DNA of 39,760 nt from Actinotalea fermentans ATCC 43279 = JCM 9966 = DSM 3133 (GTDB lineage: Bacteria; Actinomycetota; Actinomycetes; Actinomycetales; Cellulomonadaceae). The position numbers and the translations under genes are program-made. Under the pieces are notes generated by a model, which saw only the letters and a program-made list of their open reading frames with translations, was not told the origin of the DNA and did not search any database. How positions within the stretch are numbered: position 1 is the first letter of the stretch; every line of letters starts with the position of its first letter. Of this stretch, positions 4,502 through 39,760 are shown in pieces. The stretch is from assembly GCA_000767215.1 (NCBI GenBank), contig AXCX01000003.1, positions 1 to 39,760 on the forward strand, given 5' to 3'.

Positions 4502-4810
4502 TCAAGGGCGCGGTGGCGGTGTGATGAACTCGTCGATCGCAGCGACCGGGATCTTGCGCAGTCGGCCGATGCGGATCGAGTGGATCTCGCCGGCGGCGAT
4601 GAACTCGTAGAGCTTGCTGCGGCTGATGCCCAGGACGGCGGCCGCCTCCACGACGCTGAACACTCGGCGTTCGTCCGGCTGCAGCGTGATGTTGATGATC
4701 GGCTGCTCGACCTCTCGGACCCTTCGGCGCGTCCGTTCGGTACTGACCGAGGTCACGCGAACAGGGGTCGGCTTGCCCTTCGGGGCGTCCCCTCGCTTGG
4801 GCGGGCTCAT
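4502..4810 (-). CDS. Excisionase-like DNA-binding protein (MerR/AlpA-type HTH), downstream of integrase
   Basis: A 102-residue protein. A basic linker is followed by FSVVEAAAVLGISRSKLYEFIAAGEI and HSIRIGRLRKIPVAAIDEFI, the classic excisionase winged helix-turn-helix (helix17 type) used by Xis and AlpA proteins. The ATG at 4810 overlaps the integrase stop (ATGA), so it is translated right after the integrase. The longer upstream frame is out of register with the overlap and unlikely. Known role of the family: bending att DNA to favour excision. A second, different HTH of this type precedes the integrase, so the two may split excision and regulation. Confidence 0.82.
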   Translation of the reverse strand: MSPPKRGDAPKGKPTPVRVTSVSTERTRRRVREVEQPIINITLQPDERRVFSVVEAAAVLGISRSKLYEFIAAGEIHSIRIGRLRKIPVAAIDEFITPPPRP

Positions 4811-12389: not shown

Positions 12390-13867
12390 GGCCGCCCCGC
12401 CATCCGCGCCGCGGTATCGAAGACCTCGAGCTCCCCGCGCGTCAGCTGGTGCTGGGCGACGAACGCCCGGTCGTGGATGCGCCACAGCCCTTGCCCGACG
12501 CCGAGCGTGGGCAGCAGCTCGGTCTCCGTCTCGGTCAGCCCGAGCGCCAGGGCGGATCCGGCGAGCTGGTCGGCCTCTTGGCGGTAGATGATCCGCGTCG
12601 AGCAGTCGGCGAGCAGGCCTTGGGCGAGGGCGCGGACTTCTGAGCCAAGGTCGCCGATGGCGTCGAGGTCGGACAGCCGGTGGACCACCATGAGGTTGGC
12701 GATGCCGTACGCGCGCGACAGCTTCCACTGGGCCTGCATCCGACGAATGAGTGCGGGGTGCCGCATGACCCGCCACGCCTCGTCGTAGACCACCCACCGC
12801 CGACCGCCGGCCGGGTCGAGCAGCGCGCCCTCCATCCACGCCGATGCGCACGTCATGACCAGCGAGAGCAGGGTGTCGTTGCCCGACACCTGCGACAGGT
12901 CGAGGGTGACCATCGGCGCGTCCGGGTCGAAGGCCACGGTCGACGGTCCGTCGAAGATCCCCGCGAGGTCGCCGCGGACGAGCCGCCGCAGCGCGTGGGC
13001 GACCTCGCGCCCGTCGGTGCGCAGCTGGTCGGCGTCGACGTCGTCGGCGCCGAGCGGGTTGATGAGCAGGGCGACGACGTCGGGCAGGGTCGGCTCGGTG
13101 CAAGCAGCCACTGCGTCGGCCAGGGCGGCGTCGAGGGCCGTGTGCTCGACCGGCCGCAGCGCCCGGACGAGCACGGTCTCCGCGAGGGTGCCGAGCAGTT
13201 CGCGCCGCCGGGACCACACGAGGCCGGACCACTGCTCGTCGGGCAGCCCGTCCGGGCGCCGCCCGGCGTCGAGCGGGTTGAGCCGGTTGGGCAGCCCGTG
13301 CCCCAGCGCGATGGTCGCGCCACCGACCGCGCGTGCGACCGCGGTCCACTCGCCCTTCGGGTCACCCGGGACGTAGACGCGGATCCCGAAGGCCAGGGAC
13401 CGGGTCGCCAGCGACTTGGCCAGGGCGGACTTGCCGGTGCCGATCACCCCGGCGAGCAGCACGTTCGGATTGGTGATCAGCCCCTGCGCGTAGAGCTCCC
13501 ACGGGTCGTAGACGAACGCGCCGCCCGAGAGCAGGTCAGTGCCGATCAGGACGCCGTCAGAGCCAAGTCCGGCCTCGGCGAGGAAGGGGTAGGCGCCCGC
13601 AAGGGTGGCCGATGTCGCCGCGTGCGGCGGGACGGCGAAGGGGAGCCACGAGCGCAGCGCGGCAGGGCCCGGGTCGCCGGATCGCGGGAGGTAGGCGGGA
13701 CTTCTGCCCTGTCCGTCGGCCCGAAGGCGGTCACGACGCGCGGCGAGCGCTTCGGCGTGCGCCGAGCGTCGCGCCGCCGCCAGACGGCGCCGTCGCTCGC
13801 GGCGACCTGCGGCGAGCTCGGCCGCGGGCGCGACGAGCTGGGTCGCATGCGTGCGCGGGGCGTCCAC
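12386..13867 (-). CDS. VirB4-like conjugation ATPase
   Basis: A 493-residue T4SS ATPase. Walker A is GVIGTGKSALAK (residues 140-151), Walker B WVVYDEAWRVM; other VirB4 marks are FVYDPWELYAQGLITNPNVL before the P-loop, KGEWTAVARA, LDLSQVSG and the HRLSDLDAIGD segment after Walker B. N-terminal 60 residues are very basic. It lacks the long N-terminal VirB4 domain, and the upstream SCO6880 protein probably supplies it. GTG 13867 is 5 bases after the SCO6880 stop; the gene is chained to the coupling-protein gene by a GTGA overlap. Confidence 0.9.
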   Translation of the reverse strand: MDAPRTHATQLVAPAAELAAGRRERRRRLAAARRSAHAEALAARRDRLRADGQGRSPAYLPRSGDPGPAALRSWLPFAVPPHAATSATLAGAYPFLAEAGLGSDGVLIGTDLLSGGAFVYDPWELYAQGLITNPNVLLAGVIGTGKSALAKSLATRSLAFGIRVYVPGDPKGEWTAVARAVGGATIALGHGLPNRLNPLDAGRRPDGLPDEQWSGLVWSRRRELLGTLAETVLVRALRPVEHTALDAALADAVAACTEPTLPDVVALLINPLGADDVDADQLRTDGREVAHALRRLVRGDLAGIFDGPSTVAFDPDAPMVTLDLSQVSGNDTLLSLVMTCASAWMEGALLDPAGGRRWVVYDEAWRVMRHPALIRRMQAQWKLSRAYGIANLMVVHRLSDLDAIGDLGSEVRALAQGLLADCSTRIIYRQEADQLAGSALALGLTETETELLPTLGVGQGLWRIHDRAFVAQHQLTRGELEVFDTAARMAGRP

Positions 13868-19700: not shown

Positions 19701-20705
19701 TCAGGAGCTTCCAGAGAGCCGGAGACCGCCGATGAACTTCGGCGCCCAGTACGAGCTCTGCGACACGCGCTGCTCGATCTTCACCACGTCGCCCGTCTGC
19801 GGCGCCTCGATCATCGCGTCGCCGCCCAGCGACATCGCCACGTGGAAGATCGTCGACGGGTCGCCGAGGTCATGCGCGAAGAACACGAGGTCGCCCGGCT
19901 GGAGCTGCGCCATCGTCGTCACTCGCACGCCGGGCGCGTTCCACTGGTCCCGTGACGTCCTCGGCAGCAGGACGCCCGCCTGCGCCCAGGCGTAGCGCGT
20001 GAGGCCCGAGCAGTCGAAGCCGACCGTGCCGGCGCCCGAGCCGAAGCCGAGCGTCGGGCCGTTCAGGTCACCACCGCCCCAGGCGTACGGCGTGCCGAGC
20101 CACTGCTCGGCGGCCGCGATCGCGACACGTGCGGACTCAGACGCCGGTGCGCACCCTGCCGACGCCGCAGCCGCAGGGTCGTCGAGGATGTCCGCCAGCC
20201 ACGCACGAGCGCCGGCCTCCCACTTCGCGTAGGCGTCCGGGAACGCCGACCGCTGCACGGCCTGAGCCGCCTCAGTGAGCGCCATCGCCTCCCACCCGTC
20301 GACGTCGAGCAAGCCACGGTTGCCGGTCGGCGAGGACGGACCACCGAAGAATGCCGCGGCCGCGTACGCAGGCTCGCGCACCTGCTCCGGCGTCCCCCAG
20401 CCCATCGACGGCCGCTGCTGGAACAGCCCGAGCGAGTCGCGGTCGCCGTAGTCGAGGTTGCGCAGGCCGGACTCCTGCATCGCGGTCATCAACGCGATCA
20501 GGAGTCCCCGCGCAGGCACGTCCCGCTGCTGGCCGACAGCGACGATCACCCGCGCGGACGCCGCCTGCTCGTCGTCGAGATCCACGACCGGCCCGGCGGC
20601 GACGGCGCAGCCACTCTCCGACTGGAGGGAGCCGGCCAGACCTGCCAGCGCGCCGGTGAGGACGAGGACGCCCGCGACGACGGCGGCGCCAACCTTCGCG
20701 AGCAT
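19701..20705 (-). CDS. NlpC/P60 peptidoglycan hydrolase with transglycosylase-like domain
   Basis: A 334-residue secreted protein. The N-terminal hydrophobic segment is a signal or anchor (VGAAVVAGVLVLTGALAGLAG). Residues about 50-190 resemble a lytic transglycosylase: IALMTAMQESGLRNLDYGDRDSLGLFQQRPS has the catalytic Glu context. The C-terminal NlpC/P60 domain has catalytic Cys in GFDCSGLTRYAW and His in IFHVAMS. Such two-domain enzymes (VirB1/Tcp-like) open the cell wall for the T4SS. ATG 20705 overlaps the VirB8-like stop (ATGA), so it is translated with it. Confidence 0.9.
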   Translation of the reverse strand: MLAKVGAAVVAGVLVLTGALAGLAGSLQSESGCAVAAGPVVDLDDEQAASARVIVAVGQQRDVPARGLLIALMTAMQESGLRNLDYGDRDSLGLFQQRPSMGWGTPEQVREPAYAAAAFFGGPSSPTGNRGLLDVDGWEAMALTEAAQAVQRSAFPDAYAKWEAGARAWLADILDDPAAAASAGCAPASESARVAIAAAEQWLGTPYAWGGGDLNGPTLGFGSGAGTVGFDCSGLTRYAWAQAGVLLPRTSRDQWNAPGVRVTTMAQLQPGDLVFFAHDLGDPSTIFHVAMSLGGDAMIEAPQTGDVVKIEQRVSQSSYWAPKFIGGLRLSGSS

Positions 20706-21364
20706 CAGGGCACGACCGTCGCGCCGACCAGGACCAGGTGGCAGCGGTCGACGTCGGCGCCGTCGGCCGGGCATCGCATGCCGATGGTGACCGTCCGCTC
20801 GCGGGAGGCGGTCTTCTCAACGCCGGCCTCGACGTACGTCGTCGTCTCGATGCCTGTGACGTTCCGCATCGCCCAACCCGGCTCGGCCTGCCCGCTCGTG
20901 ACCACCTGCGCCCAGGAGCCCGGCTCCCAAACGTCGCCCGCCTCGAACGTCGACCGCTGCTCGTTGGCGCGCATGCGCTGCCACAGCTCGTCGGCGGGGA
21001 TGCGGGCGGCGACCAGTGCCTCGAGGTCGGCGCGGCCGGTCTCGCTGAGCCCCGGGTCCGCGTCGGCAAGGAGGACGTCCTGGTAGTCCGCTGGGTCCAG
21101 GCTCCGGGTGTCGACGGCGAAGAGCGTCTCGGCGACGGCCGTCGCGTAGGCGTCGGGCTCCTCTGTGTGCGGCAGGGACGTCGCCCCGCTGGGCGTGTCG
21201 GCGCGCGGAGTGCGCTCGGGGTTCCGGCCGGCCGGGGCAGTGGCGCTCGGGGGATCGGACGACGGCGCCGCACCCGGCGCGAGCGTGCCGCGCATCGTCC
21301 AGGCGGTGACGACGACCACGAGGAGTGCGCCGATGGCAGCTGCGATCCCGAGCGCCTTCTTCAT
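20705..21364 (-). CDS. VirB8/TcpC-like membrane protein
   Basis: A 219-residue protein with one N-terminal membrane span (ALGIAAAIGALLVVVVTAW), a Pro/Ser/Thr-rich linker, and an outer domain starting at DAYATAVAETLFAVDTRSLDP, which resembles the NTF2-like fold of VirB8/TcpC proteins. A Cys pair near the end (MRCPADGADVDRCHLV) could be a disulfide. ATG 21364 has GGAGG 8 bases upstream. It forms a short operon with the P60 gene, together completing the T4SS. Homology is weak from sequence; context is the main support. Confidence 0.68.
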   Translation of the reverse strand: MKKALGIAAAIGALLVVVVTAWTMRGTLAPGAAPSSDPPSATAPAGRNPERTPRADTPSGATSLPHTEEPDAYATAVAETLFAVDTRSLDPADYQDVLLADADPGLSETGRADLEALVAARIPADELWQRMRANEQRSTFEAGDVWEPGSWAQVVTSGQAEPGWAMRNVTGIETTTYVEAGVEKTASRERTVTIGMRCPADGADVDRCHLVLVGATVVP

Positions 21365-25193: not shown

Positions 25194-25529
25194 ATGCCGA
25201 CCACTCCACGCCGCCGACGCCGCTGGCCCACCCGCACGTGGGCCGAATCCTCCACGCCCACACCGACCGGCGGCGCCGCCGTCGGCCGCTGCCCCGAGTG
25301 CGGCGCGACCCTCACCGCCCGTCGGCGCGACGCCGTCTACTGCTCGCGGGTCTGCCAGACGCGGGCGTGGCGGCGCGGTCGCGCCGTCCGTCGATGCCAG
25401 GTGTGCCGCCGTCGTCTCCGCCCGCATGCCCGGGCCTCGGCGCGGTACTGCTCGGACGCGTGCCGTCAGCGCGCGGCCCGTGCCCGGACGGCGAAGGCGC
25501 GAGCCGAGAGCATCGGCAGCGCGGCGTGA
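25194..25529 (+). CDS. Small double zinc-finger protein coupled to relaxase
   Basis: A 111-residue basic protein with two treble-clef-like units: CPECGATL ... YCSRVCQTRAWRR and CQVCRRRL ... YCSDACRQRAAR. Each has CxxC followed by YCS-x2-C, a tandem duplication of one zinc module. Basic flanks suggest nucleic-acid binding. Its TGA overlaps the relaxase ATG (TGATG), so the two are translationally coupled. A role as relaxosome accessory protein is a reasonable inference. ATG 25194 lacks a strong ribosome site. Confidence 0.72.
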   Translation: MPTTPRRRRRWPTRTWAESSTPTPTGGAAVGRCPECGATLTARRRDAVYCSRVCQTRAWRRGRAVRRCQVCRRRLRPHARASARYCSDACRQRAARARTAKARAESIGSAA

Positions 25530-28500
25530 TGAGCGCGTGCGTCCGGTACGCCGGCCAGTCGTACACGTACCTGCTCGACTCGGTGACCAAGGACCACGGT
25601 CGGCCCGCCGCAGGCTCGCCGATGACGCGGTACTACTCCGCGCACGGCACGCCGCCCGGAACCTGGCTGGGCACCGGGCTCGCCGGGCTCGCCGACGGTC
25701 GCGGCATCCCCGAGGGCTCGTTCGTGACCCCGGTCCAGATGGAGCGCCTCTTCGCCAACGGCGAGGACCCCGCCACGGGCACCGCGCTTGGGCGGTCCCC
25801 ACACGTGTACGCCGACGGCGACCCTCGGCGCCCGGTCGCCGGGTTCGACTTTACGTTCACGGCCGAGAAGTCGGTCTCCGTCCTGTGGGCTCTGGCCGAC
25901 CCGTCGACCCGCGAGCTCATCTACGCCTGCCACCGCCAGGCGATCGCCGACGTCGTCGCCCTCATCGAGCGCGACGTCGCCAAGACCCGGATCGGCACCA
26001 ACGGCGTCGCGCAGGTCGACGTTCGCGGCGTCGCCGCAGCGGCATTCGACCACTGGGACTCCCGCGCGAACGACCCGAACCTGCACACCCACGTGGTCAT
26101 CGCCAACCGCGCGCAGGGCCCCGACGGCAGATGGCGCACGCTCGACTCCCGCGCCGCGCTGAGGGCCGTGGTCGCGATGTCGGAGCGGTACGACGCCCTC
26201 CTCGCCGACCACATCACGGCGCGGCTGGGGCTCGACTGGGAGTACCGCGAGCGCGGGCCGGGACGGAACCCCGCGTACCAGCTGGCCGCCGTCCCGCCCG
26301 AGCTCGTCGCCGCGTTCTCCCGCCGCTCGGCCGCGATCGACGCCGAGACCGACCGCCTGATCGAGGCCTACCTCGAGGCGCACGGCAGGCGGCCCGACGC
26401 CGTGACCGTCCTCCGCCTTCGGCAGCACGCGACCCTGGCCACCCGCGACACGAAGGCTGTCCACTCGCTCGAAGACCTCACGTCCCAGTGGCATGCACGC
26501 GCCGCCGAGGTCGTGGGTGCCAGCCCTACCGCGTGGGCGGCAAAGGCCCTCGCCGCAACACGATCGCTGGCCCCCGCCGCGACCGAGCGGCCAGACGCTC
26601 TCGTGGCCGACGCCGCAGAGGCAGTCCTGGCCGCACTCGCGAGCAAGCGCTCGACATGGACGCGCTGGAACGTCGACGCCGAGGTGTCGCGCGCCCTGAA
26701 GGCCCACCGCTTCGCGACGTCGGACGCGCGCGACGCAGCCACCGCGATGGTGGCCGACGAGGTCGCCCGGCGCTCTGTCCTGCTCACCCCGCCCGAGGTC
26801 GCGCCCGTCCCCACCGCCCTGCGTCGGCACGACGGCGGCTCCGCGTTCCGCCCGCACCGCAGCGAGCGCTACACGTCCCAGCGGTTGCTCGACGCGGAGG
26901 CACGACTCCTGGCCGCGGGCCGAGACCGCAACGGCCCCGCCCTCGCCACCGCGCCGGAATCGGCGCCAGGCGCACTGTTCGACGACCAGGCCGACGCCGT
27001 TGCAGCGATCGCCACGTCGGGGCACGTCGTCGACGTCCTCGTCGGAGCAGCCGGATCGGGCAAGACCCACGCACTGGCAGCCCTGCGCGCCGCCTGGGAG
27101 TCCGAGCACGGACCCGGCTCGGTCGTCGGGCTCGCGCCGTCCGCCGCGGCGGCCGACGTCCTGGCGCAGAGCCTCGGCATCGGCTGCGAGAACACCGCGA
27201 AGTGGCTCGTCGAGCACGACGCCCAACCCGACCGCCTGCACCGCATCGACCGCGCCCGCGCCGCCATGCACGCAGCCCCCGACGTCGCTACCGCCCGCAC
27301 CCTGGCCGACCACCTCGCGCGACTCACCGCTCAGGTCGAGCAATGGCGGTTCCACCCCGGCCAGCTGGTGATCCTCGACGAGGCGTCTCTGGCCGGCACG
27401 CTGCCGATGGACAGGATCGCCGCGTGCGTCGGCGATGCGGGCGCCAAGCTGCTGCTCGTCGGCGACTGGGCGCAGCTCTCCGCGATCGACGCCGGCGGGG
27501 CCTTCGGCCTGCTCGCCCGGAACTGCGGCCCCGGCGTCCCCGAGCTCGGCGCCGCACGCCGCTTCGCCCACGCCTGGGAGCGCGACGCCTCCACCCGGCT
27601 GCGGGTCGGTGACCCGTCATGCCTCGACGACTACGACGCCCACGACCGCCTGTCGGCCGGGGACCACCCCGCGATGGTGGACGCCGCATACCTCGCGTGG
27701 GCGGCCGACGAGCGAGCCGGGCTGCGGTCCCTGCTCATCGCCGGCGACCGCGACACCGTCCGCTTGCTCAACGAGCGCGCCCGCGCCGAGCTTGTCGCCG
27801 CCGGCGCCGTCGGGGCGAACGGGGCGGTCCTGCACGACGGCCTCGTGGCCGGCGTCGGCGACCGGATCGTCACCCGACGGAACGACCGCCACCTCGGCGT
27901 CGGCGAGGGCTGGGTCAAGAACGGGGACACATGGACCGTCGTCGCCCGCCACGACGACGGCGCCCTCGCGGTCCGGCGCGAGGTGGGCGGACCGGCGGTC
28001 GTCCTACCCGCGACGTACACCGCCGAGCACGTCGAGCTCGGCTACGCCACCACCGCGTTCCGGGCGCAGGGCGCGACCGTCGATACCGCGCACGCGGTCA
28101 TCAGCGGAGCGTCGATGACGCGCGAGGTCCTCTACGTCGCTCTCACCCGGGCGCGCCAGTCGAACCGGGCGTACGTCTGCACCGACGTCCTCCCCGAACC
28201 GCTGCAGGGCTTCGCCGACGTCGCCCCGACCAGCCGTGGTGTGCTCACCGCCGTGCTGAGCCACGTCGGCGCTGCCACGTCCGCTCACGAAGTCCGGTTC
28301 GACGAGACGGAGGCGGTCGGCTCGATCCGGACTCTCGCCGCGGAGTACGAGACCATCGCGCACCTCGCTGAGGCTCCGCACTGGACGGCGCTGCTTGGGC
28401 AGTCGGGCCTCACGTCCGATCAGGTCCGAGCGATCGAGGCGTCGCCCGCGTTCGGAGCCCTCACAACGTCCCTGCGCCGGGCCGAGGCGCACGGCCTCAA

Positions 28501-29056
28501 CGTCGACGCCGCCCTGCCTGCCCTCGCCAACCGGGCCGACATCGGGGCCGTCGACATCGCGTCAGTGCTCCACGAGCGAGTCGACGGATGGACCACGGCG
28601 AGCATCGCCGGGAACCGAGCGCGTCCCGCGCGGCTTGTGTGCGGACTGATCCCTGCGGCGTCACACGCCGTACCCGGGGAGATCGCGGCTGCGCTCATGG
28701 CGCGCGAGCGGTTGCTCGACGAACGCGCGGACCTACTCGTCGAGCGGGCCCGGGCAGCCGCTGCCCCGTGGCTCAGAGAGCTTGGCCCGGTCCCCGCCGG
28801 TGCGGCTGCACGCTCGCGGTGGGAGAAGCGCGCGCGAACCGTCGCTGCCTATCGGGAGCGGCACAGCGTGACCGATGCGGCACGCGCCCTCGGCGCCAGC
28901 GCCGTGGCCGATCGGCAGCAGGCCAACGCACGGGCGGCGGCCGCCGCAGCCCTGTCGGTCCAGCGGGGTCTCGGCGCGATGACGCCAAGCCCGGAAGCAC
29001 GGATACCTGCGGCGCAGGCGCCGGGCCTCGAGCGTCAGAGCGGCGTGGGACGGTGA
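25529..29056 (+). CDS. MobF relaxase/helicase (TraA/TrwC-like)
   Basis: A 1175-residue conjugative relaxase. The N-terminal TrwC domain has the catalytic Tyr region (VRYAGQSYTYLLD), FTFTAEKSVSVLWAL and the metal-binding three-His motif FDHWDSRANDPNLHTHVVIANR (about residues 173-192). The second half is a RecD-like helicase: Walker A GAAGSGKTHAL (about residue 505), Walker B LVILDEASLAG (about residue 613), ATTAFRAQGATVD and TREVLYVALTRAR. It nicks oriT, stays covalently bound to the strand and unwinds it. ATG 25529 overlaps the zinc-finger stop. It is a full-length enzyme of the actinobacterial MobF group and the most reliable mark of a self-transmissible element here. Confidence 0.95.
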   Translation: MSACVRYAGQSYTYLLDSVTKDHGRPAAGSPMTRYYSAHGTPPGTWLGTGLAGLADGRGIPEGSFVTPVQMERLFANGEDPATGTALGRSPHVYADGDPRRPVAGFDFTFTAEKSVSVLWALADPSTRELIYACHRQAIADVVALIERDVAKTRIGTNGVAQVDVRGVAAAAFDHWDSRANDPNLHTHVVIANRAQGPDGRWRTLDSRAALRAVVAMSERYDALLADHITARLGLDWEYRERGPGRNPAYQLAAVPPELVAAFSRRSAAIDAETDRLIEAYLEAHGRRPDAVTVLRLRQHATLATRDTKAVHSLEDLTSQWHARAAEVVGASPTAWAAKALAATRSLAPAATERPDALVADAAEAVLAALASKRSTWTRWNVDAEVSRALKAHRFATSDARDAATAMVADEVARRSVLLTPPEVAPVPTALRRHDGGSAFRPHRSERYTSQRLLDAEARLLAAGRDRNGPALATAPESAPGALFDDQADAVAAIATSGHVVDVLVGAAGSGKTHALAALRAAWESEHGPGSVVGLAPSAAAADVLAQSLGIGCENTAKWLVEHDAQPDRLHRIDRARAAMHAAPDVATARTLADHLARLTAQVEQWRFHPGQLVILDEASLAGTLPMDRIAACVGDAGAKLLLVGDWAQLSAIDAGGAFGLLARNCGPGVPELGAARRFAHAWERDASTRLRVGDPSCLDDYDAHDRLSAGDHPAMVDAAYLAWAADERAGLRSLLIAGDRDTVRLLNERARAELVAAGAVGANGAVLHDGLVAGVGDRIVTRRNDRHLGVGEGWVKNGDTWTVVARHDDGALAVRREVGGPAVVLPATYTAEHVELGYATTAFRAQGATVDTAHAVISGASMTREVLYVALTRARQSNRAYVCTDVLPEPLQGFADVAPTSRGVLTAVLSHVGAATSAHEVRFDETEAVGSIRTLAAEYETIAHLAEAPHWTALLGQSGLTSDQVRAIEASPAFGALTTSLRRAEAHGLNVDAALPALANRADIGAVDIASVLHERVDGWTTASIAGNRARPARLVCGLIPAASHAVPGEIAAALMARERLLDERADLLVERARAAAAPWLRELGPVPAGAAARSRWEKRARTVAAYRERHSVTDAARALGASAVADRQQANARAAAAAALSVQRGLGAMTPSPEARIPAAQAPGLERQSGVGR

Positions 29057-32120: not shown

Positions 32121-33611
32121 TCAGGCGCTGGCCGGTTTCGCGGCCCGTTCGACACGGATGAGCAGCGATGCGACCACAAGCAGCGCGACGATCCAGCCAA
32201 GTGCAAGGAGGAGCGCTCCGCCTTCGTCGAAGGTCTCGGTCAGCGCGCCGTCGAACACCACCCGGCTCGCCCCATAGCCCGGCACGAAGCGCGCCCAGTC
32301 CGGTGGTCCGTCCTGCAGCATCGGGCTCTGCCCGATGGCGAGGTCGAGGAACGGGATGAGGAAGGCGATCAAGGCGCCGCTCAGTCGTCCGACCAGCGGT
32401 CCGACGATGACGCCGATGAGCGCGAACGTCGCGGCGATCAGGGCGTTCCCGATGGCATACGGGAGCCATTGGTGCGCCTCGAAGAGCGGCACCGTGACCG
32501 CCAGGGACGCCACGACCGCCAGTGCGGCGGCCGTGAGCGCAGCGCCGACACGGGTGGCGAGGACCACGGAGCGGCGTTGGCCGGCCAGGACGAGGCGCTG
32601 GTCCGCGCCGCGCCCCTCGACGCCGATGAAGACCCCGGCGAGTGCCGCGAGCGAGCCGATGGCGATCGGCGCCATGGTGCCCGCATGCATGTGCGCAGGG
32701 TCGAGGATCGCGACGATCTCCACGCCGCCCTCGCGAAGTCTCACTGGGGAGCTCCCGCTCGGCGTCACGGCGTCGGCGAGCCAGACGAACACCACGGGAA
32801 CGGCTGCAAGCAGAACCCAGAGCACGGGGGTGCGGCGCCAGGCGCGGAAGGCCATCCGTAGCCCGGCGGTCAGCTGAGCCGCCGCCGTCGAGGGGCGCGG
32901 AGGGCGTTGTCGGCGCAGTGCCGACGTGCGCAGGACTGCGGCGTAGGCGACCACGAGCGCACCGACGGCCCAGACCAGTGCCCACGTCAGTGGGTCTGGT
33001 CCACCGTGACCCGGATCTGCACCCATGGTCCACAGAGTGACGAAGTGGGTAGGGAGCACTCTCAGCGCCGCCGTATCGGCTCCGGTCATCGCCGGGCCGA
33101 AGAACACGTCGAGAATCCACACGAACAGCAGCAGCATGGTGCCGTTCACGGGGTTCGCCACGACAGAGCCAACCATCGCGCCGACCGCGAGGTAGATCAC
33201 GGCGAACAGGGCGGTCCCCACGACCACCGTCGAAGGCTGATCGAGCCCTGTGCGGATCGCCAGGGCGGCCAGTGCAGAGCCCGAGGCGAGTGCGGCAAGC
33301 ACCCCACCCGAGACGAGACGCCCGGTCACGAGGGTGGCACGCGGAAGCCCGGCGATGACGAGGCGGCGGTCGCTGAACCGCGCCGCCGAGACCTGGAAGT
33401 ACATGCCGACACCCGCGATGAAGCCTGCGGCCCAGCCAGCCGTGATCGAGTCGATCGAGACTCCGCCGGTCCCGAGCGTCTCGCCAGCCTCGGCCAAGGG
33501 GCCGGCGGCGACGAGCACGAAGGCGACAGGCACCGCAACGAGCACGAACAGGTTGACCGGGTTCCGCAGGTGGTCGGAGACGAACCGCCGGGCCAGCAGT
33601 GCGGAGGTCAT
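32121..33611 (-). CDS. ABC-2 type exporter permease
   Basis: A 496-residue permease with about ten hydrophobic segments in two similar halves, for example LFVLVAVPVAFVLVAAGPLA and VLWVLLAAVPVVFVWLADAV, each followed by a cytoplasmic basic stretch (AARFSDRRLVIAGLPRATL and EGRGADQRLVLAGQRRSVVL). This duplicated ABC-2 membrane layout is seen in exporters. ATG 33611 overlaps the ATPase stop (ATGA). The operon is preceded by a CopR-like box and a CsoR-like operator, which suggests metal-linked export, but the substrate is not shown by sequence. Confidence 0.82.
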   Translation of the reverse strand: MTSALLARRFVSDHLRNPVNLFVLVAVPVAFVLVAAGPLAEAGETLGTGGVSIDSITAGWAAGFIAGVGMYFQVSAARFSDRRLVIAGLPRATLVTGRLVSGGVLAALASGSALAALAIRTGLDQPSTVVVGTALFAVIYLAVGAMVGSVVANPVNGTMLLLFVWILDVFFGPAMTGADTAALRVLPTHFVTLWTMGADPGHGGPDPLTWALVWAVGALVVAYAAVLRTSALRRQRPPRPSTAAAQLTAGLRMAFRAWRRTPVLWVLLAAVPVVFVWLADAVTPSGSSPVRLREGGVEIVAILDPAHMHAGTMAPIAIGSLAALAGVFIGVEGRGADQRLVLAGQRRSVVLATRVGAALTAAALAVVASLAVTVPLFEAHQWLPYAIGNALIAATFALIGVIVGPLVGRLSGALIAFLIPFLDLAIGQSPMLQDGPPDWARFVPGYGASRVVFDGALTETFDEGGALLLALGWIVALLVVASLLIRVERAAKPASA

Positions 33612-34297
33612 CGGGACCACGTCCGACCGTCGCGCACGTCGACGATGCGCGTGAAACGGTGCTCGTCCACGACGAAGTGGGACACCACGAGCACGGACTT
33701 GCCGCGAGCCCGACGCGCCTCGACCAGGTCCCAGAACCGCAGGTAGGTGTCCCAGTCGAAGCCCGCGTACGGCTCGTCGAGGAGCAGGACGTCGGGGTCC
33801 GGCAGGAGCGCGAGCGCGAGGTTGAGCTTGGACAGAGTGCCGCCCGACAGGCGGTCTACCCGAACGCCGGCGTACCGCGCGAAGTTCAGGCCCTCGTAGA
33901 GCTCGTTGCGGCTGCGACGTACGTCAGCGTCGGGCATGCCGTAGGCGCGGCCGAAGAGCTCGATGTGCTCGTCGCAGGTGAGGCGGCTGTACACGAGCGG
34001 CTCCTGCGGGCAGTAGCCGATCCGCCCGCGGGTGGTGACGGTTCCCGCGTCGGCGTCGAGGGCGCCGACGAGCACCTTCATGAAGGTGCTCTTGCCCGAG
34101 CCGTTCTCACCTACCAGGCCGACGACCTCGCCGGGGTAGAGCTCGATGCCGGCGCCCGCCAGGACCTGCGCCCGCTTCCGACGCCGCCCGAGTCGGCGGT
34201 ACGCCTTCTCGATGCCGACCGCCGACAGGAGTGTCGCGGCGCCCCAGGCGCCATCGTTTCCCGGCAGAACCTGCGTGCGCGTCTCCGACGCCTCCAT
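33608..34297 (-). CDS. ABC exporter ATPase subunit
   Basis: A 229-residue ABC ATPase. Walker A GENGSGKST, Q-loop YCPQEPLVYS, signature LSGGTLSKLN (degenerate LSGGQ), Walker B VLLLDEPYAGFDWD and switch VVSHFVVDEHR are all present. ATG 34297 lies 29 bases downstream of a CsoR-type palindrome. It pairs with the permease through an ATGA overlap. Together they form a two-gene exporter in the metal regulon described for the neighbouring units. Confidence 0.88.
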   Translation of the reverse strand: MEASETRTQVLPGNDGAWGAATLLSAVGIEKAYRRLGRRRKRAQVLAGAGIELYPGEVVGLVGENGSGKSTFMKVLVGALDADAGTVTTRGRIGYCPQEPLVYSRLTCDEHIELFGRAYGMPDADVRRSRNELYEGLNFARYAGVRVDRLSGGTLSKLNLALALLPDPDVLLLDEPYAGFDWDTYLRFWDLVEARRARGKSVLVVSHFVVDEHRFTRIVDVRDGRTWSR

Positions 34298-34326: not shown

Positions 34327-34345
34327 AATACCCCGTAGGGGTATT
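34327..34345 (-). promoter_or_regulatory. CsoR-type operator before ABC exporter
   Basis: Palindrome AATACCCC-GTA-GGGGTATT (19 bp, perfect arms). It resembles CsoR operators such as that of B. subtilis copZA. It lies 29 bases before the exporter ATG. A very similar site with the same 3-bp centre precedes the P-type ATPase gene. Confidence 0.7.
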
Positions 34346-34393
34346 TGAGGCCTCCAGTGGAGCGCAGCCGGATTGAGAACGGGGCCATCAATC

Positions 34394-34411
34394 GGTGAAG
34401 GTTCGATGAAG
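34394..34411 (-). promoter_or_regulatory. CopR-like direct repeat before ABC exporter
   Basis: On the minus strand CTTCATC-GAAC-CTTCACC, an 11-bp-period direct repeat. It lies 48 bases upstream of the CsoR-like palindrome and 96 bases before the ATPase start. It is the same motif as near the SHOCT, Met/His-rich and P-type ATPase genes. Confidence 0.65.
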
Positions 34412-34494
34412 CGCGGCAGGCCCACGAAGGGGTACGCGAGTGTGCGACCGCCGGCGGGTGGGGCCGGGCTGCCCCTCAGGAGGTCGGACGCCCC

Positions 34495-34725
34495 TCAGGA
34501 CGAGAGGTGACTCAGCCGCTCTTCGTACTCGTCGGTGGTGATCTCGCCGCGCGCGTATCGCTCGGCCAGGATCTCGAAGGCCGTCCGCGGCCCGGCAGAG
34601 CGGCCGGGTGGAGTGCGCGGCTCGCTGGCGCGCAGGACCAGCAGAACGACGAGGACCATGACCAGGGTCAGGATGATCCAGGAGACCCACATTCCGGCGC
34701 CCATGCCGTAGCCCCAGCTCATCAT
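34495..34725 (-). CDS. SHOCT-domain small membrane protein
   Basis: A 76-residue protein beginning MMSWGYGMGAGMWVSW with a membrane span (IILTLVMVLVVLLVL), a Pro/Arg linker and the SHOCT motif FEILAERYARGEITTDEYEERLSHL at the C-terminus. AGGAG precedes ATG 34725 by 7 bases. A CopR-like repeat lies upstream. Short SHOCT membrane proteins frequently accompany copper-handling genes in actinobacteria, as I recall; their function is unknown. The Met/Trp/Gly-rich start could touch metal. Confidence 0.82.
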   Translation of the reverse strand: MMSWGYGMGAGMWVSWIILTLVMVLVVLLVLRASEPRTPPGRSAGPRTAFEILAERYARGEITTDEYEERLSHLSS

Positions 34726-34792
34726 CGTCGCGCTCCTCTCAGCTCGCCGACGCAAGGATCGCTCCGCGACCGCGAAGGCTCGGTCACGGTGC

Positions 34793-34810
34793 GATGAAGA
34801 CCTGATGAAG
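34793..34810 (-). promoter_or_regulatory. CopR-like direct repeat before SHOCT gene
   Basis: On the minus strand CTTCATC-AGGT-CTTCATC, two perfect 7-bp units at 11-bp period. It is the best match of the four in the window and fits TGAAG-N6-TGAAG on the plus strand. It lies 67 bases before the SHOCT start. Confidence 0.75.
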
Positions 34811-34826
34811 GTCCCCCGCGTGGACG

Positions 34827-35621
34827 TCAGAGCGGGTGCAGGAGGCGCCTGATGAACTGGCGGGTCCGCTCCTGCGCAGGGTCGGTCAGCACCTGCCTGG
34901 CCGGACCCTCCTCGAGCACGGCGCCCTCGTCGAGGAAGACCACGCGGTGGGCCACCTCGCGGGCGAACTGGAGCTCGTGCGTGACGACGACCATGGTCCA
35001 GCCTTCGGCGGCGAGGTCGCGCATGAGTGTGAGGACGTCGCCGACGAGTTCCGGGTCCAGCGCCGATGTCGGCTCATCGAAGAGGAGCAGGTCCGGGCGG
35101 AGGGCCAGCGCCCGAACGATTCCGACCCGCTGCTGCTGGCCACCCGAGAGCTGGAACGGGTAGGCGTCCGCCCGATCGGCCAGGCCGACTCGGGCGAGCA
35201 GCGCCAGGGCGTCCTCCCGCGCCTCACGCACCGGTCGTCGCTGCACGACGATCGGTCCCTCCGTGACGTTCTCCAGGACCGTCTTGTGCGGGAAGAGGTT
35301 GTAGTGCTGGAAGACCATGGCGGACCTGTCGCGCAGGGCGTTGAGCTGGCGCCGGTCGGGCGAAGTCGCGAAGTCGACGGCGAGAGAGCCGTGGACCTCC
35401 ACCCGTCCTGCGTCGGCGACCTCCAGGCCGTTGAGGCACCGCAGCACGGTCGTCTTGCCCGATCCGGAGGCGCCGATGATGGCGACGACCTCGCCGGTGT
35501 GCACCGTGAGGTCGACCGCGCGGAGGACCTCATGGGTGCCGAAGGACTTCCGCAGACCGGTGACGGCCAGCAGCGCGGGGCCGTCAGCAGCGCGGCCGGC
35601 GCCGGGGTCAGTGGGCGACAT
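34827..35621 (-). CDS. Polar amino-acid ABC transporter ATPase
   Basis: A 264-residue ATPase of the glutamine/histidine/cystine uptake class. Walker A GASGSGKTT, Q-loop VFQHYNLFPHKTVLEN (the FPH/YNLF typical of this class), signature LSGGQQQRVGI, Walker B LLLFDEPTSALDPE and switch VVVTHELQFA are all there. ATG 35621 overlaps the permease end by 14 bases. It forms an operon with the permease and the binding lipoprotein upstream. The cystine-type substrate is suggested by the binding protein. Confidence 0.93.
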   Translation of the reverse strand: MSPTDPGAGRAADGPALLAVTGLRKSFGTHEVLRAVDLTVHTGEVVAIIGASGSGKTTVLRCLNGLEVADAGRVEVHGSLAVDFATSPDRRQLNALRDRSAMVFQHYNLFPHKTVLENVTEGPIVVQRRPVREAREDALALLARVGLADRADAYPFQLSGGQQQRVGIVRALALRPDLLLFDEPTSALDPELVGDVLTLMRDLAAEGWTMVVVTHELQFAREVAHRVVFLDEGAVLEEGPARQVLTDPAQERTRQFIRRLLHPL

Positions 35622-36276
35622 ACCTGTCCAGCCTCTTCTCGAGCACGCCCTGGCCGGTGGACAGGGCGAGGCAGATCACCCAGTAGACCAGGGCGGCCTC
35701 CAGGTAGAGCAGCATGAACTCCTGGCTGAAGGCGGCTACCTTCTGCGCCTCCCGGAACAGCTCGGTGACCAGGATCAGCGAGGCGAGTGAGGTGTCCTTG
35801 ACCAGCGAGATGAACGTGTTCGACAAGGGAGGCACGGACACCCGGGCAGCCTGCGGCAGGATGATGCGCCGCAGCGCCGTCGGACGCGCCATGCCGATGA
35901 CGTACGCGGCCTCCCACTGACCCTTCGGCACCGAGAGGATCGCCGCGCGCACGACCTCGGCGGCGTAGCCCCCGACGTTCAGCGAGAAGGCGATGATCGC
36001 GCTCGGCCACGGGTCGATGACGAGGCCGAGGCTCGGCAGGCCGTAGAAGACCACGAACAGCTGCACGAGCAGCGGCGTGCCGCGGATGAGCGAGACGTAG
36101 CCCCGCGCCAGGGCCGCGACCAGCCGCCTCCCGGACAGCCGCATGAGCGCGACGGCGACCGCGATGACCATCCCGCCGGCGAAGGAGGCGAGCGCCAGGG
36201 GGATCGTGCCTCGGATCGCCCCGCCCGTGATGGGGCCGAGCGATCCGAGGACGAGATCCCACTGGTCAGACGTCAC
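35608..36276 (-). CDS. Polar amino-acid ABC transporter permease
   Basis: A 222-residue permease with about five membrane spans and the EAA-like loop (KGQWEAAYVIGMARPTALRRIILPQAARV), typical of His/Glu/Gln/cystine (HEQRo) transporters. YVSLIRGTPLLVQLFVVFYGLP and FSLNVGGYAAEVVRAAILSVP are family hallmarks. GTG 36276 starts 10 bases after the binding-protein stop. It delivers the substrate bound by the lipoprotein across the membrane. Confidence 0.92.
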   Translation of the reverse strand: MTSDQWDLVLGSLGPITGGAIRGTIPLALASFAGGMVIAVAVALMRLSGRRLVAALARGYVSLIRGTPLLVQLFVVFYGLPSLGLVIDPWPSAIIAFSLNVGGYAAEVVRAAILSVPKGQWEAAYVIGMARPTALRRIILPQAARVSVPPLSNTFISLVKDTSLASLILVTELFREAQKVAAFSQEFMLLYLEAALVYWVICLALSTGQGVLEKRLDRYVAH

Positions 36277-36286
36277 TGCGGGCCCG

Positions 36287-37120
36287 TCACTGGGAGACGT
36301 CCTCGCCGAAGAACTCCGCGGAGATCTCGGCGAGGGTGCCGTCGGCGGCGAGCGCAGCGAGCGCCTCGTTCACGGCGTCGGCGAGCGCGGTGGACCCGGA
36401 GCGGAACGCGAAGGCGCTGCGGGAGACGTCGTCGGTCTCGGCCGCGACGACGAGCCCGGCGGCACCGGTCTGCTTCTTGTAGTCCAGGAACGTGAGCTCG
36501 TCGTTGATCGTCGCGTCGACCCGGCCCTGCTCGACCAGGGCCACCGCCTGGGCCCAGCCCTCGACGGCCTCGATCGTCGCGCCGTTCTCCTCGGCGAGCG
36601 TGTACCAGTTGCTCGTCAGCGACTGCGCGGTGGTCTTGCCCCCCAGGTCGGCGAAGGAGCCGATGGAGTCGTCGCCCTCGCGGACGACGATCACCCCGGG
36701 GCTGTAGGTGTACGGCTCGGAGAACGTGTACGCCTCCTCCCGCTCCGGGGTGATGGAGACCTGGTTCGCGATCACGTCGAAACGGCCCGCCTCGAGGCCG
36801 GCGAAGATTGCGTCCCACTGGGTCTCCTCGAACCGGACCTCGACGCCCAGCTCCTCGGCAACCGCGCGGATCACCTCGACGTCGTACCCGGTCAGATCTC
36901 CGGATCCGTCCTCGTGGAAGGAGAAGGGACGGTAGGTGCCCTCGGTCCCGACCACGAGAACGCCGGCCTCCTGAACGTCCGTGAGCGAGGTGTCGGACTC
37001 TGCGGGAGGTGCGCTCGGCTCGGCCGACTGGTCGTCGCCGCTGTCGGACGAGCAGGCGCTGACGGCGAGAGCGGCCGTCAGGGCCAGGGCGGTGGCGGTG
37101 AAGAGACGTCGTGCAGTCAT
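36287..37120 (-). CDS. Cystine-like amino-acid-binding lipoprotein
   Basis: A 277-residue periplasmic-type (family 3) binding lipoprotein. Signal TARRLFTATALALTAALAVSAC with lipobox VSAC; a Ser/Asp/Pro-rich linker; then DVQEAGVLVVGTEGTYRPFSF. The downstream features YDVEVIRAVAEELGVEVRF, RFDVIANQVSITPER and NWYTLAEENGATIEAVEGW closely resemble TcyA/TcyJ-type cystine-binding proteins, so cystine or a related amino acid is my best guess. ATG 37120 has GAGG 8 bases before. No regulatory site of the copper type lies in this operon, so it seems independent of the surrounding metal genes. Confidence 0.88.
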   Translation of the reverse strand: MTARRLFTATALALTAALAVSACSSDSGDDQSAEPSAPPAESDTSLTDVQEAGVLVVGTEGTYRPFSFHEDGSGDLTGYDVEVIRAVAEELGVEVRFEETQWDAIFAGLEAGRFDVIANQVSITPEREEAYTFSEPYTYSPGVIVVREGDDSIGSFADLGGKTTAQSLTSNWYTLAEENGATIEAVEGWAQAVALVEQGRVDATINDELTFLDYKKQTGAAGLVVAAETDDVSRSAFAFRSGSTALADAVNEALAALAADGTLAEISAEFFGEDVSQ

Positions 37121-37511
37121 GGAGGTACCTCTCGTGGTCGTGCGCGGAATGCACCTCACAAGGACGCGAGGTGCGGTGCCGGGGAGGCGCGCCGAGTCGG
37201 CGCTGCCGTCAGGCGATCGCCTGCGGCGTCGAGCGGCCGGGGCCGGTCAGGCGGCGATGGCCGGGCTCAACAGGAGCGCGAGGGGCAACAACAACACCGC
37301 TGCACGCGGGCGCGAGGCGCGGGCGTGCACGAGGCGGTGGTGCGCAGCATGCATCGATGAAACCACATGGCCTGGAGCGGCACCGTCCCGGTTCAGCCCG
37401 CGCGCGCCTTCCTTGACGGAATCTTCATCGTCCCGGGGTCCCGGCCTCAACGGTCCGGGCGCACGCTGGACCTGAACGGTCGGACCGCCGACCCTGGTGA
37501 AGGGATCCATC
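37121..37511. other. 390-bp intergenic region between importer operon and Met/His-rich gene
   Basis: It must hold promoters of both divergent units. A CopR-like repeat (37412-37429) belongs to the plus-strand gene. A minus-strand small ORF (37247-37354, 35 residues, hydrophobic, LLLPLALLLSPAIAA) precedes the importer and might be a leader peptide, with weak support. No riboswitch fold was recognised. Confidence 0.5.
37412..37429 (+). promoter_or_regulatory. CopR-like direct repeat before Met/His-rich gene
   Basis: CTTGACG-GAAT-CTTCATC, 11-bp period; the first unit is degenerate. Oriented like the others toward its gene, 82 bases from the ATG. Confidence 0.5.
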
Positions 37512-37979
37512 ATGCGAGCTTCCGTGAGAGCCGCGCTGCTCGTCGGCGGGGGCGCAGCACTGGCCCTCGGTGTCTCCCCGGCGCTGGCGGCACCTCTGGC
37601 GAGCCCCGCCCCCGCGGGCGGTTGGTCCGTCACCGAGGGGCCCCGGGATGGCGAAGGCAAGGTCAAGGTCTGTCCGGAGGCGGGCTCCGACGGCGTGCCT
37701 GACATGTCGCGGTCCGCGATGGCGTCGATGCACCGCGCGCACCATCGCGACCGGGCGGGAGACGCCGAGGGCATGGCCGGCATGCACCGGGCACATCACC
37801 GCGACGGCGGCCCCCGCGGCATGATGGGCGGGCACCACGGCGACATGATGGACGGCGTCGATGACGACGACATGATGGACAGCCGCGACGACGACATGAT
37901 GCGTGGCCGCGACGGCGACGACATGATGGGCGGCCGCGACGCCGACGACATGATGGGCCCTGGTCACATGGGCCGGTGA
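37512..37979 (+). CDS. Secreted Met/His/Asp-rich protein, probably metal-binding
   Basis: A 155-residue exported protein. Signal peptide RASVRAALLVGGGAALALGV ending around SPALAAP. The mature part has a Cys (VKVCPEAG) and then repeats: two MHRAHHRD units and five DDMM-type units (DDMMDS, DDMMRG, DDMMGG and relatives), the latter repeated at DNA level as GACATGATG. Met- and His-rich stretches bind Cu(I)/Cu(II) in periplasmic proteins. AGGGA lies 8 bases before ATG 37512 (GTG 37497 also possible). It precedes the heavy-metal ATPase gene by 116 bases, in the same direction, and has a CopR-like repeat upstream. A copper-buffering role is the best reading. Confidence 0.75.
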   Translation: MRASVRAALLVGGGAALALGVSPALAAPLASPAPAGGWSVTEGPRDGEGKVKVCPEAGSDGVPDMSRSAMASMHRAHHRDRAGDAEGMAGMHRAHHRDGGPRGMMGGHHGDMMDGVDDDDMMDSRDDDMMRGRDGDDMMGGRDADDMMGPGHMGR

Positions 37980-37999
37980 AGCAGCGCGCAGCGAGGTGT

Positions 38000-38017
38000 C
38001 TTCATCAAACCTTGATG
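38000..38017 (+). promoter_or_regulatory. CopR-like direct repeat before P-type ATPase
   Basis: CTTCATC-AAAC-CTTGATG, 11-bp period. It lies 78 bases before the ATG and 40 bases before a CsoR-like operator, almost the same architecture as before the ABC exporter. A TATGAC -10-like hexamer follows at 38028-38033. Confidence 0.7.
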
Positions 38018-38057
38018 CGCCTGCGGGTATGACTCGCACCTGCACCGTGGTTGCATG

Positions 38058-38076
38058 GGTACCCCCCAGGGGTATC
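38058..38076 (+). promoter_or_regulatory. CsoR-type operator before P-type ATPase
   Basis: GGTACCCC-CCA-GGGGTATC, with arms TACCCC/GGGGTA and a 3-bp centre, as in the exporter operator at 34327-34345. It is placed downstream of the putative promoter, 19 bases before the ATG, so binding would block transcription. Confidence 0.7.
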
Positions 38077-38095: not shown

Positions 38096-39760
38096 ATGGA
38101 TGAGCGGCGAGTCGTACTTCGGGTAGGCGGGCAGCACTGGGCGACGTCGACGCCCGGGGTGGAACGGGCGCTGGGCCGACGTCCAGGTGTCCTCGGTGTC
38201 GAGGCGAACGCCGTGGCGCAGACCGCCACGGTCACCTTCGATGCCGACGTCACCTCGATGACCGACCTCGCGTCCTGGGTCGAGGCGTGCGGGTACCACT
38301 GCTCAGGACGCTCGGTGCCCGACCACGTCTGCGACGCCATGAGCGAGCCCATGCCTGGAGCTGGCGCGGCGGTCACCGGTCACGCGCACCACACGCTCCA
38401 CGAGCCGAGCACGCCTCCGGCCGAGCTCGAGGCCGAGCCCACGGCGCCTCACGAGCGCGGGCATGGCGACGAGCACATGGGCCACGAGCACCACGCAGCC
38501 GCTCACCCGACGGGCGCGCCATCGCCGCACGAGGCCATGGGTCACGGGGGGCACCACGGCGGCGGCTCGATGGCGGACATGGTCCGCGACATGCGCAACA
38601 GGTTCCTGGTCGCCGCGCTCCTGTCCGTCCCGATCACCCTCTACTCGATGATCGGCCGCGAGTTCCTCGGGTTCAGCGCCGCAGCACCCCTCGGGCTGCG
38701 CGACGACGTCTTCATGCTCGTCCTGTCGTTGCCCGTCGTCTTCTACTCCGCGTGGATCTTCTTCGACGGCGCCTACCGTGCCCTGCGCGCCCGGACGCTG
38801 GACATGATGGTCCTGGTCGCCGTCGCCGTCGGCACCGGTTGGCTCTACAGCGTCGTCGTGACCCTCACGGGCGGCGGCGAGGTCTTCTACGAGGCGGCGT
38901 CGGTCCTCACCACCTTCGTGCTGCTGGGACACTGGTTCGAGATGCGCGCCCGCGGAGGCGCGAACGACGCCGTCCGGACGCTCCTGGAGCTGGCGCCGCC
39001 GCGCGCGGTGGTGCTGCGGGACGGCGTCGAGCACGAGGTGCCCACCGCGGAGGTCCTCGTCGGCGACACGCTGCTGATCCGGCCGGGGGCGAAGGTTCCT
39101 GTCGACGCCGTCGTCGTCGAAGGTGAGTCCGAGGCGGACGAGTCCATGGTCACCGGCGAGAGCCTGCCGGTGGGGAAGGCCCCCGGCGACCCGCTCATCG
39201 GAGCATCCCTCAACGTCAGCGGGACGCTGAGGGCCCGCGCGGTGAAGGTCGGCGAGGACACCGCCCTGGCGCAGATCGTCGCGATGGTCCAGGAGGCACA
39301 GAACTCGAAGGCCCCCGGGCAGCGCCTGGCGGACCGCGCCGCGTTCTGGCTCGTCTTCGTCGCCCTCATCGGCGGCACCGGCACGTTCCTGGCCTGGTGG
39401 CTCGCCGGCGCATCGGTTCCGACGGCCATGCTCTTCGCCATCACCGTCGTCGTCATCACCTGCCCGGACGCGCTCGGGCTGGCCACGCCGACGGCGATCA
39501 TGGTCGGTACCGGGCTGGGCGCCCGCCGGGGCGTGCTGTTCAAGAACGCTACGGCGCTCGAGGCCTCCGCCCGCATCGACACGGTCGTCATGGACAAGAC
39601 CGGCACGCTCACCAAGGGCGCCCCCGAGGTCACGGACGTCGTCGTGGCGCCGGGCGCCGACGAGGCCGAGGTCCTCGCCCTCGTCGCGGCGGTCGAGCGG
39701 GAGTCGGAGCACCCGTTGGCGCGCGCCGTCGTCGCCCACGCCGACCAGGCGGGCGCCCGC
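38096..39760 (+). CDS. Heavy-metal (copper-type) P1B ATPase, partial, with CPD motif
   Basis: First 555 codons of a P1B ATPase that runs off the window. Residues 1-70 look like an HMA domain (RRPGVLGVEANAVAQTATVTFDADVT), but the CxxC is replaced by QHWATS; a second Cys pair lies in CGYHCSGRSVPDHVC. Residues 95-160 are His-rich. Membrane helices follow from about 170. TGES is at 353-356, the ion-path motif is CPD (456-458) in place of the usual CPC, DKTGT begins at D500 and HP is at 539-540. The GGAGG before ATG 38096 decides the start. CopR-like and CsoR-like sites precede it, so copper export is likely, but the CPD change may alter specificity. Confidence 0.93.
   Translation, partial: MDERRVVLRVGGQHWATSTPGVERALGRRPGVLGVEANAVAQTATVTFDADVTSMTDLASWVEACGYHCSGRSVPDHVCDAMSEPMPGAGAAVTGHAHHTLHEPSTPPAELEAEPTAPHERGHGDEHMGHEHHAAAHPTGAPSPHEAMGHGGHHGGGSMADMVRDMRNRFLVAALLSVPITLYSMIGREFLGFSAAAPLGLRDDVFMLVLSLPVVFYSAWIFFDGAYRALRARTLDMMVLVAVAVGTGWLYSVVVTLTGGGEVFYEAASVLTTFVLLGHWFEMRARGGANDAVRTLLELAPPRAVVLRDGVEHEVPTAEVLVGDTLLIRPGAKVPVDAVVVEGESEADESMVTGESLPVGKAPGDPLIGASLNVSGTLRARAVKVGEDTALAQIVAMVQEAQNSKAPGQRLADRAAFWLVFVALIGGTGTFLAWWLAGASVPTAMLFAITVVVITCPDALGLATPTAIMVGTGLGARRGVLFKNATALEASARIDTVVMDKTGTLTKGAPEVTDVVVAPGADEAEVLALVAAVERESEHPLARAVVAHADQAGAR

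Follow-up and report, generated by a model that had tools for sequence, protein, structure and literature searches.

In Corynebacterium glutamicum, the two-component system CopRS and the repressor CsoR are placed on separate operons in the model given in the accessible part of PMC3140484, which also reports a CopR site, TGAAGATTTgaTGAAGATTT, with the direct repeat TGAAGATTTnnTGAAGATTT. The CsoR operators of Streptomyces lividans are given as ATATACCCCTNAGGGGTATAT and TACX9GTA in the part of PMC3902906 available here, and cytosolic and periplasmic copper sensing are treated as independently activatable systems in the available part of a review (PMC7558416). Here we describe a copper island in a stretch of 39,760 nucleotides from Actinotalea fermentans ATCC 43279 (contig AXCX01000003.1; hereafter the window), which is the entire contig C212 of a 3.62 Mb assembly in 841 contigs. 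In this island, exporter genes stand behind composite promoters in which a direct repeat resembling the CopR site (hereafter the box) is followed by a palindrome resembling a CsoR operator. As far as sequence comparison allows us to judge, the island exporters are probably activated by CopR and repressed by CsoR at these promoters.

The initial annotation of the window described four direct repeats of period 11 before the genes for a SHOCT-domain protein, an ABC exporter, a Met/His-rich protein and a P-type ATPase, and all four are present at these places (Table 1). The literal motif CTTCATC-N4-CTTCATC at up to 3 mismatches gave 7 matches in the window with 1.41 expected, and was discarded as too loose a test; on this motif the Met/His site alone is therefore indistinguishable from chance. 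The refined motif CTTSATS-RAAY-CTTSATS, a loosened form of the consensus CTTCATC-RAAY-CTT[CG]AT[CG] of 21 composite promoters described below, recovered just the four sites at up to 2 mismatches (0.01 expected), and four sites were obtained in 0 of 100 shuffles. Since two of the four sites belong to the set behind the consensus, the independent support comes from scans of the genome and the genus and from the orthologous sites in Cellulomonas carbonis. Genome-wide and at up to 2 mismatches, the literal motif yielded 20 sites and the refined motif 15, as compared to a single site for the reversed pattern in each case. Rather than being scattered at random, 14 of the 15 refined sites were found on three contigs with copper genes (C212, C313 and C798), which together amount to about 3% of the assembly. 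In front of the SHOCT gene, the repeat may extend to a third half-site, degenerate but with the period kept (34782-34810, minus strand).

The suggested resemblance to the Corynebacterium CopR box is supported by the published site, which reads AAATCTTCATCAAATCTTCA on the other strand and includes CTTCATC-AAAT-CTTCA, within our consensus. To this can be added a comparison of 19 congeneric genomes, 13 of which contained the box (up to 2 mismatches), with 0 matches to the reversed pattern across all 19. These 13 were exactly the genomes in which a CopR orthologue reached 61% identity or more, while the six genomes that were free of boxes had either no CopR match at E <= 1e-60 (four genomes) or best matches of 58% and 53%. 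The chance of such a split is 1 in 27,132, with the 61% threshold chosen after the list was seen; at the cut-off of the search itself, boxes were present in 13 of the 15 genomes with a CopR match and in 0 of the 4 without one (p about 0.004). The reading of the boxes as CopR-type is thereby supported by comparison, with the agreement with the C. glutamicum site, the presence of copRS both on the contig presumed to come next and on a second island, and the co-occurrence of box and CopR as its three components.

Palindromes had been annotated in the window before the ABC exporter and the ATPase only, in both cases downstream of the box, and a scan of the window found precisely these two (0.02 expected). 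They were also thought to share the same 3-bp centre; the length is indeed the same, but the sequences differ (GTA/TAC versus CCA/TGG). In the whole genome, the 17-mer ATACCCC-N3-GGGGTAT at up to 2 mismatches occurs in four places, two in the window (before the ABC exporter and the ATPase) and one each before the ATPase paralogue on C798 and csoR on contig C30. A fifth site, on C333, appeared with the shorter TACCCC-N3-GGGGTA at up to 1 mismatch. All three exporter sites and the csoR site agree with the TACX9GTA operator with its G-tract, and among the matches listed a palindrome was located 36-58 bp from csoR in 12 of 13 congeneric genomes. Comparison thus supports the palindromes as CsoR-type operators.

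The regulator genes are outside the window, as had been stated, with copRS on C313 and C798, the latter contig representing a second island with its own pair, and csoR on C30. The C313 pair consists of a regulator with receiver and Trans_reg_C domains and a HAMP/HisKA/HATPase_c kinase, all above the Pfam cut-offs. The pattern HxH-x14-H, which is the spacing of H39/H41/H56 in the extracytoplasmic loop of CopS, was present in 14 of 21 kinase matches, including both kinases of this genome; one of the seven kinases without it is missing its N-terminus. Because contig C212 stops at 39760 within the ATPase gene, the content beyond this point was deduced from another contig and from a relative. C313 starts with the C-terminal portion of an ATPase that resembles the continuation of the truncated gene minus a few residues. 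A single contig of C. carbonis (G002:C4) contains, in the same order, the ABC exporter, the box of the SHOCT gene, an amino-acid ABC transporter, the Met/His protein and the ATPase, and continues in the same order with DUF3105, DUF305, CopA, SHOCT2, copS, copR and CcdA, with boxes and operators in orthologous positions. From this synteny, C313 very probably follows next after the window, which would put copRS about 10 kb beyond 39760.

The sole copper-type CsoR of the genome is encoded on the 11-kb contig C30 together with an HMA protein, a CopA ATPase and hemL (547 bits, cut-off 527), and this contig looks like core genome. The protein matches PF02583 (DUF156/Trns_repr_metal) with 107 bits (cut-off 22.8), and the Cys, His and Cys ligands and an RLxR motif were recognised by eye in the translation. 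It was not classified as RicR, since its best NCBIfam model, NF052430, gave 139.2 bits, under the cut-off of 175. A second PF02583 match, on C701 (L032 291-638), has no ligand histidine by eye and reached 46.6 bits with RicR as its best model, and is thought less likely to be the reader of the operators. Core CsoR (82-100% identity) was identified in 18 of the 19 congeneric genomes, and second copies (59-74% identity) in eight relatives, on contigs that also bear boxes. No csoR was found on the island contigs of the A. fermentans genome. As the only copper-type CsoR is located on the contig with hemL, the island exporters appear tied to the CsoR of the host as well as to the CopRS of the island, and the imported exporters of this genome would depend on a resident repressor.

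The two types of sites are combined selectively. Three of the four palindromes in this genome stand 41, 42 and 50 bp behind a box, before the two ATPases and the ABC exporter, and box and palindrome are combined only before exporters. Three promoter classes can be distinguished: csoR has an operator only, the ATPases and the ABC exporter have both sites, and the SHOCT, Met/His, DUF305 and CcdA-redoxin genes are among those with just a box. In seven relatives we recorded 13 box-palindrome pairs with gaps of 41-50 bp, 11 of which precede ATPases, one an ABC exporter and one csoR. They comprise 11 close pairs inspected in six genomes among the matches listed (10 before a P-type ATPase and one before an ABC exporter) and two in the genome G018. 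Each box was initially described as oriented toward its gene, which is true for all four in the window. Orientation toward the gene was nevertheless rejected as a rule, since the box is flipped in 5 of the 13 pairs of the relatives (L115-L119; gaps of 46-49 bp). All five flipped boxes precede CPH ATPases, suggesting that box orientation follows the ATPase subtype; forward boxes with the ATPase motif in view were located before CPC or CPD ATPases.

To place these promoters in a broader context, we searched 84,980 species for the composite pattern of a box, 40-52 bp and a CsoR-type operator, in the forward orientation only. This yielded 46 stretches, 21 at 63% GC or more and 25 at 60% GC or less. 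Twenty of the high-GC composites carry actinobacterial titles (Cellulomonas, Actinotalea, Sanguibacter, Demequina, Microbacterium, Intrasporangium, Arachnia, Raineyella, Nocardioides and further metagenome-assembled genomes, MAGs), while the last is titled as a 'Proteobacteria' MAG, and its promoter is almost the same as that of an Actinomycetes MAG from the same BP9 set. A P-type ATPase follows in 18 of the 21, among them members of the Cellulomonadaceae, Sanguibacteraceae, Demequinaceae, Intrasporangiaceae and Propionibacteriaceae; another two (L037 and L068) end early, after an HMA or cupredoxin-like leader gene, and the remaining one (L077) has no ATPase. The letters CTTCATC, CTT and TACCC/GGGTA of the consensus are conserved by construction of the pattern, whereas variation was only possible in the RAAY spacer, in the last letters of the second half-site and at the T of +50. 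The 25 low-GC matches were set aside; 12 lack a csoR homologue in the locus, and the 13 with one seem to be true csoR operators, where a stretch of the csoR reading frame resembles half a box by chance (as judged by eye for one of them). The composite search gave 0 matches in viral contigs. Two plasmid loci were also excluded: on p110066 (L083) a box and a perfect palindrome precede an ATPase in a different geometry, 82 bp apart, and on Rhodococcus pRHL3 (L084) a perfect box is followed by an imperfect palindrome (1 mismatch), with a perfect palindrome 85 bp off on the other side.

The geometry of the promoters was examined in an alignment of 22 sequences, one of which (L060) was taken from the wrong half-site. 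When anchored at the box, T was observed at +50 in 15 of the 22 promoters, above all 5000 permutations (largest 13), as compared to a highest T count of 9 of 22 when anchored at the operator. That the T is fixed relative to the box would place a -10 element about 32 bp from the box with the operator floating behind it. This suggests that activation proceeds from the box, and obstruction at the start.

We propose that copper outside the membrane would signal through the kinase CopS to phosphorylate CopR, and that phosphorylated CopR, on the direct repeat upstream of the predicted start, would activate RNA polymerase at the exporter genes. Copper-free CsoR, on an operator overlapping or just past the predicted start, would block the polymerase until cytoplasmic Cu(I) rises. 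Further genes of the island carry a box and no operator, and by our reading most of them encode envelope or secreted proteins; an operator without a box precedes csoR (with copZ and copA). Full expression of the exporters would then require high copper on both sides of the membrane. Dual binding at the composite promoters is well supported by comparison, and AND logic would be its simplest reading.

Several observations weigh against this model. The fit to a -10 element is poor in the ABC promoter and some others. A CPC ATPase on C313 has divergent boxes and no operator, though it is an exporter, and a Microbacterium MAG (L077) has a composite promoter without an ATPase behind it. G018 has one composite before an ATPase and another before the csoR of its island (L126 1958-2039), which weakens a rule that composites occur only before exporters; in that island, more of the inside repressor might be made in response to the outside sensor. 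The genome G015 has boxes and CopR, yet the search for CsoR found none there. The 15th refined site, on C603, lies within a predicted open reading frame, and the full 18-base C. glutamicum box at up to 1 mismatch occurs neither in this genome nor in the 394 genomes of the class that were sampled.

The architecture by itself does not fix the logic, and both regulators could bind without forming an AND gate: loss of CsoR alone might give useful export that CopR boosts in an additive or OR-like manner, or CopR might help to displace CsoR. We consider this unlikely, if far from negligible. The operator shifts position by about 12 bp, in contrast to the T column with its constant distance from the box; this pattern is compatible with graded obstruction, and copper induction of copA in Corynebacterium crenatum was about ninefold without the csoR homologue versus 15-fold in the wild type, according to the accessible part of PMC11124244. 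On the other hand, no -35 region is evident by eye, which would favour dependence on an activator.

A single working layer, with active palindromes and inert boxes at the exporters or the reverse, seems improbable. Both types of site are kept together, with a gap of 40-52 bp, before three ATPase subtypes and an ABC exporter, and in five families. Direct repeats with a period of about 11 are common among OmpR-family regulators, and the repeats could in principle belong to another such regulator, or the palindromes to another CsoR-family protein, such as the product of the second gene on C701, or to an RNA stem, as a 6-bp palindrome could form a short one. This we regard as very improbable, since the box agrees with the tested CopR site of C. 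glutamicum and co-occurs with CopR across the 19 genomes, and since the same palindrome precedes the copper-type csoR while the C701 protein is without the ligand histidine by eye, at 46.6 bits on the RicR model.

Beyond the control by CopR and CsoR, the position of the genes allows a broader and more tentative proposal. An integrase, a coupling protein, an NlpC/P60 protein and a relaxase in the first 30 kb of the window place the copper genes beside a predicted conjugative element. It is possible, although we put it at somewhat less than even, that the composite promoter is a portable two-compartment AND switch, such that the island brings CopRS and the box and borrows the core CsoR of the host via the operator behind the box. 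If so, the exporters would be expressed only when copper is high both outside and inside the cell, and one layout, with the box either way, would serve ATPases of the CPC, CPD and CPH types as well as the ABC exporter, four exporter families in all. By using the resident repressor, an acquired resistance island might remain silent in a new host. The merging of both sensors in one type of promoter, across five actinobacterial families, would also provide a rule, open to testing, to predict the signals that a given gene requires.

Table 1. Predicted features of the window, with positions from its first nucleotide; mismatches refer to the literal and the refined box motif.
Feature	Position	Strand	Sequence	Evidence and remarks
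Integrase	4807-5925			
TraG/TraD-type coupling protein	10635-13349			
NlpC/P60 protein	19701-20774			
TrwC relaxase	25238-29056			
ABC transporter membrane protein (ABC-2-like)	32121-33620	-		PF12698 21.3 bits, below the 31.6 cut-off; 94% identical in C. carbonis
ABC transporter ATP-binding protein	33608-34297	-		Pfam ABC_tran 84 bits; C. carbonis gene 93% identical, promoter the same
CsoR-type operator, ABC exporter	34328-34344		ATACCCCGTAGGGGTAT	50 bp after the box; C. carbonis copy palindromic, centre changed
CopR-type box, ABC exporter	34394-34411	-	CTTCATCGAACCTTCACC	1 mismatch literal, 1 refined; C. carbonis copy 2 mismatches
Small membrane protein, SHOCT domain	34495-34755	-		PF09851 33 bits, cut-off 27; likely ATG 34725
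CopR-type box, SHOCT gene	34793-34810	-	CTTCATCAGGTCTTCATC	0 mismatches literal, 2 refined; conserved in C. carbonis
CopR-type box, Met/His-rich gene	37412-37429	+	CTTGACGGAATCTTCATC	3 mismatches literal, 1 refined; conserved in C. carbonis
Met/His/Asp-rich protein	37497-37979	+		Apparent signal peptide and DDDMM-type repeats by eye; likely ATG 37512
CopR-type box, ATPase	38000-38017	+	CTTCATCAAACCTTGATG	2 mismatches literal, 0 refined; conserved in C. carbonis
Candidate -10 element, ATPase	38051-38056	+	TTGCAT	Inferred; near the T column at box +50, here T at +51
CsoR-type operator, ATPase	38059-38075		GTACCCCCCAGGGGTAT	42 bp after the box; TACCCC core; fits TACX9GTA
P1B-type ATPase, copB-like	38096-39760	+		N-terminal HMA domain, CPD motif; Pfam E1-E2_ATPase and HMA; truncated by contig end

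The ATPase fragment of the window scored 341.4 bits with its best NCBIfam model, copper-translocating ATPase (TIGR01511), versus a cut-off of 397 and with the gene truncated; its complete paralogue on C798 exceeds the cut-off with 586.3 bits. Both ATPases (39443 onwards in the window; L027 3616 on C798) have a CPD motif and neither CPC nor CPH, so that they fall outside the motif definition of P1B-1 and P1B-3. The CPD motif recurs in ATPases of the relatives, and is known from three atypical rhizobial Cu-ATPases (PMC5552934, in its accessible part). A Pfam search with the Met/His/Asp-rich protein gave no match. The island also contains an ABC transporter of the cystine/polar amino-acid type (34827-37159), divergent from the Met/His box and kept in C. 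carbonis, with TcyN and a cystine-binding protein as best models, both below cut-off. Elsewhere, an Lgt-like gene stands behind a box (L028 17422-18252; prolipoprotein diacylglyceryl transferase models, below cut-off), and Lgt-like genes were seen by annotation or by eye in the islands L083, L085, L125 and L126.

Searches of the open-access literature in PubMed Central gave no description of an actinobacterial promoter with both regulators. A paper by Teramoto and co-workers on the CsoR of C. glutamicum could bear on this point. Among described systems, compared here through the accessible parts of the sources, the chalkophore operon of Mycobacterium tuberculosis under Rip1/PdtaSR (PMC8131098) likewise joins positive and negative inputs at one operon of an actinobacterium and includes a two-component system, but the proteins are others, and it is induced by nitric oxide and linked to PdtaR, with no CopR/CsoR promoter. 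The mobile cusRS-pcoA2 locus of Pseudomonas paraeruginosa (PMC11195947) is similar in that copper genes on an integrative and conjugative element combine an accessory two-component system with core regulators, except that the core two-component systems share one site there, whereas here a core cytosolic repressor would have a site of its own. The CsoR of S. lividans (PMC3902906) has in common with the C30 protein the RLxR motif, the Cys/His/Cys ligands (by eye), the TACX9GTA operator and targets of the csoR and copZA type; its operators act alone, while here such operators are also found downstream of the box of a response regulator, within an island. The CopRS of C. glutamicum (PMC3140484, PMC3353115) share with the pairs described here an OmpR-family regulator, a HAMP/HisKA/HATPase kinase with the HxH-x14-H spacing of histidines, a direct repeat with the same half-sites and, in some relatives, a single box for divergent genes. 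What distinguishes them is that one box, with no CsoR site reported alongside, is described there, as compared to a predicted regulon of many sites here, in which some boxes are followed by a CsoR-type operator.

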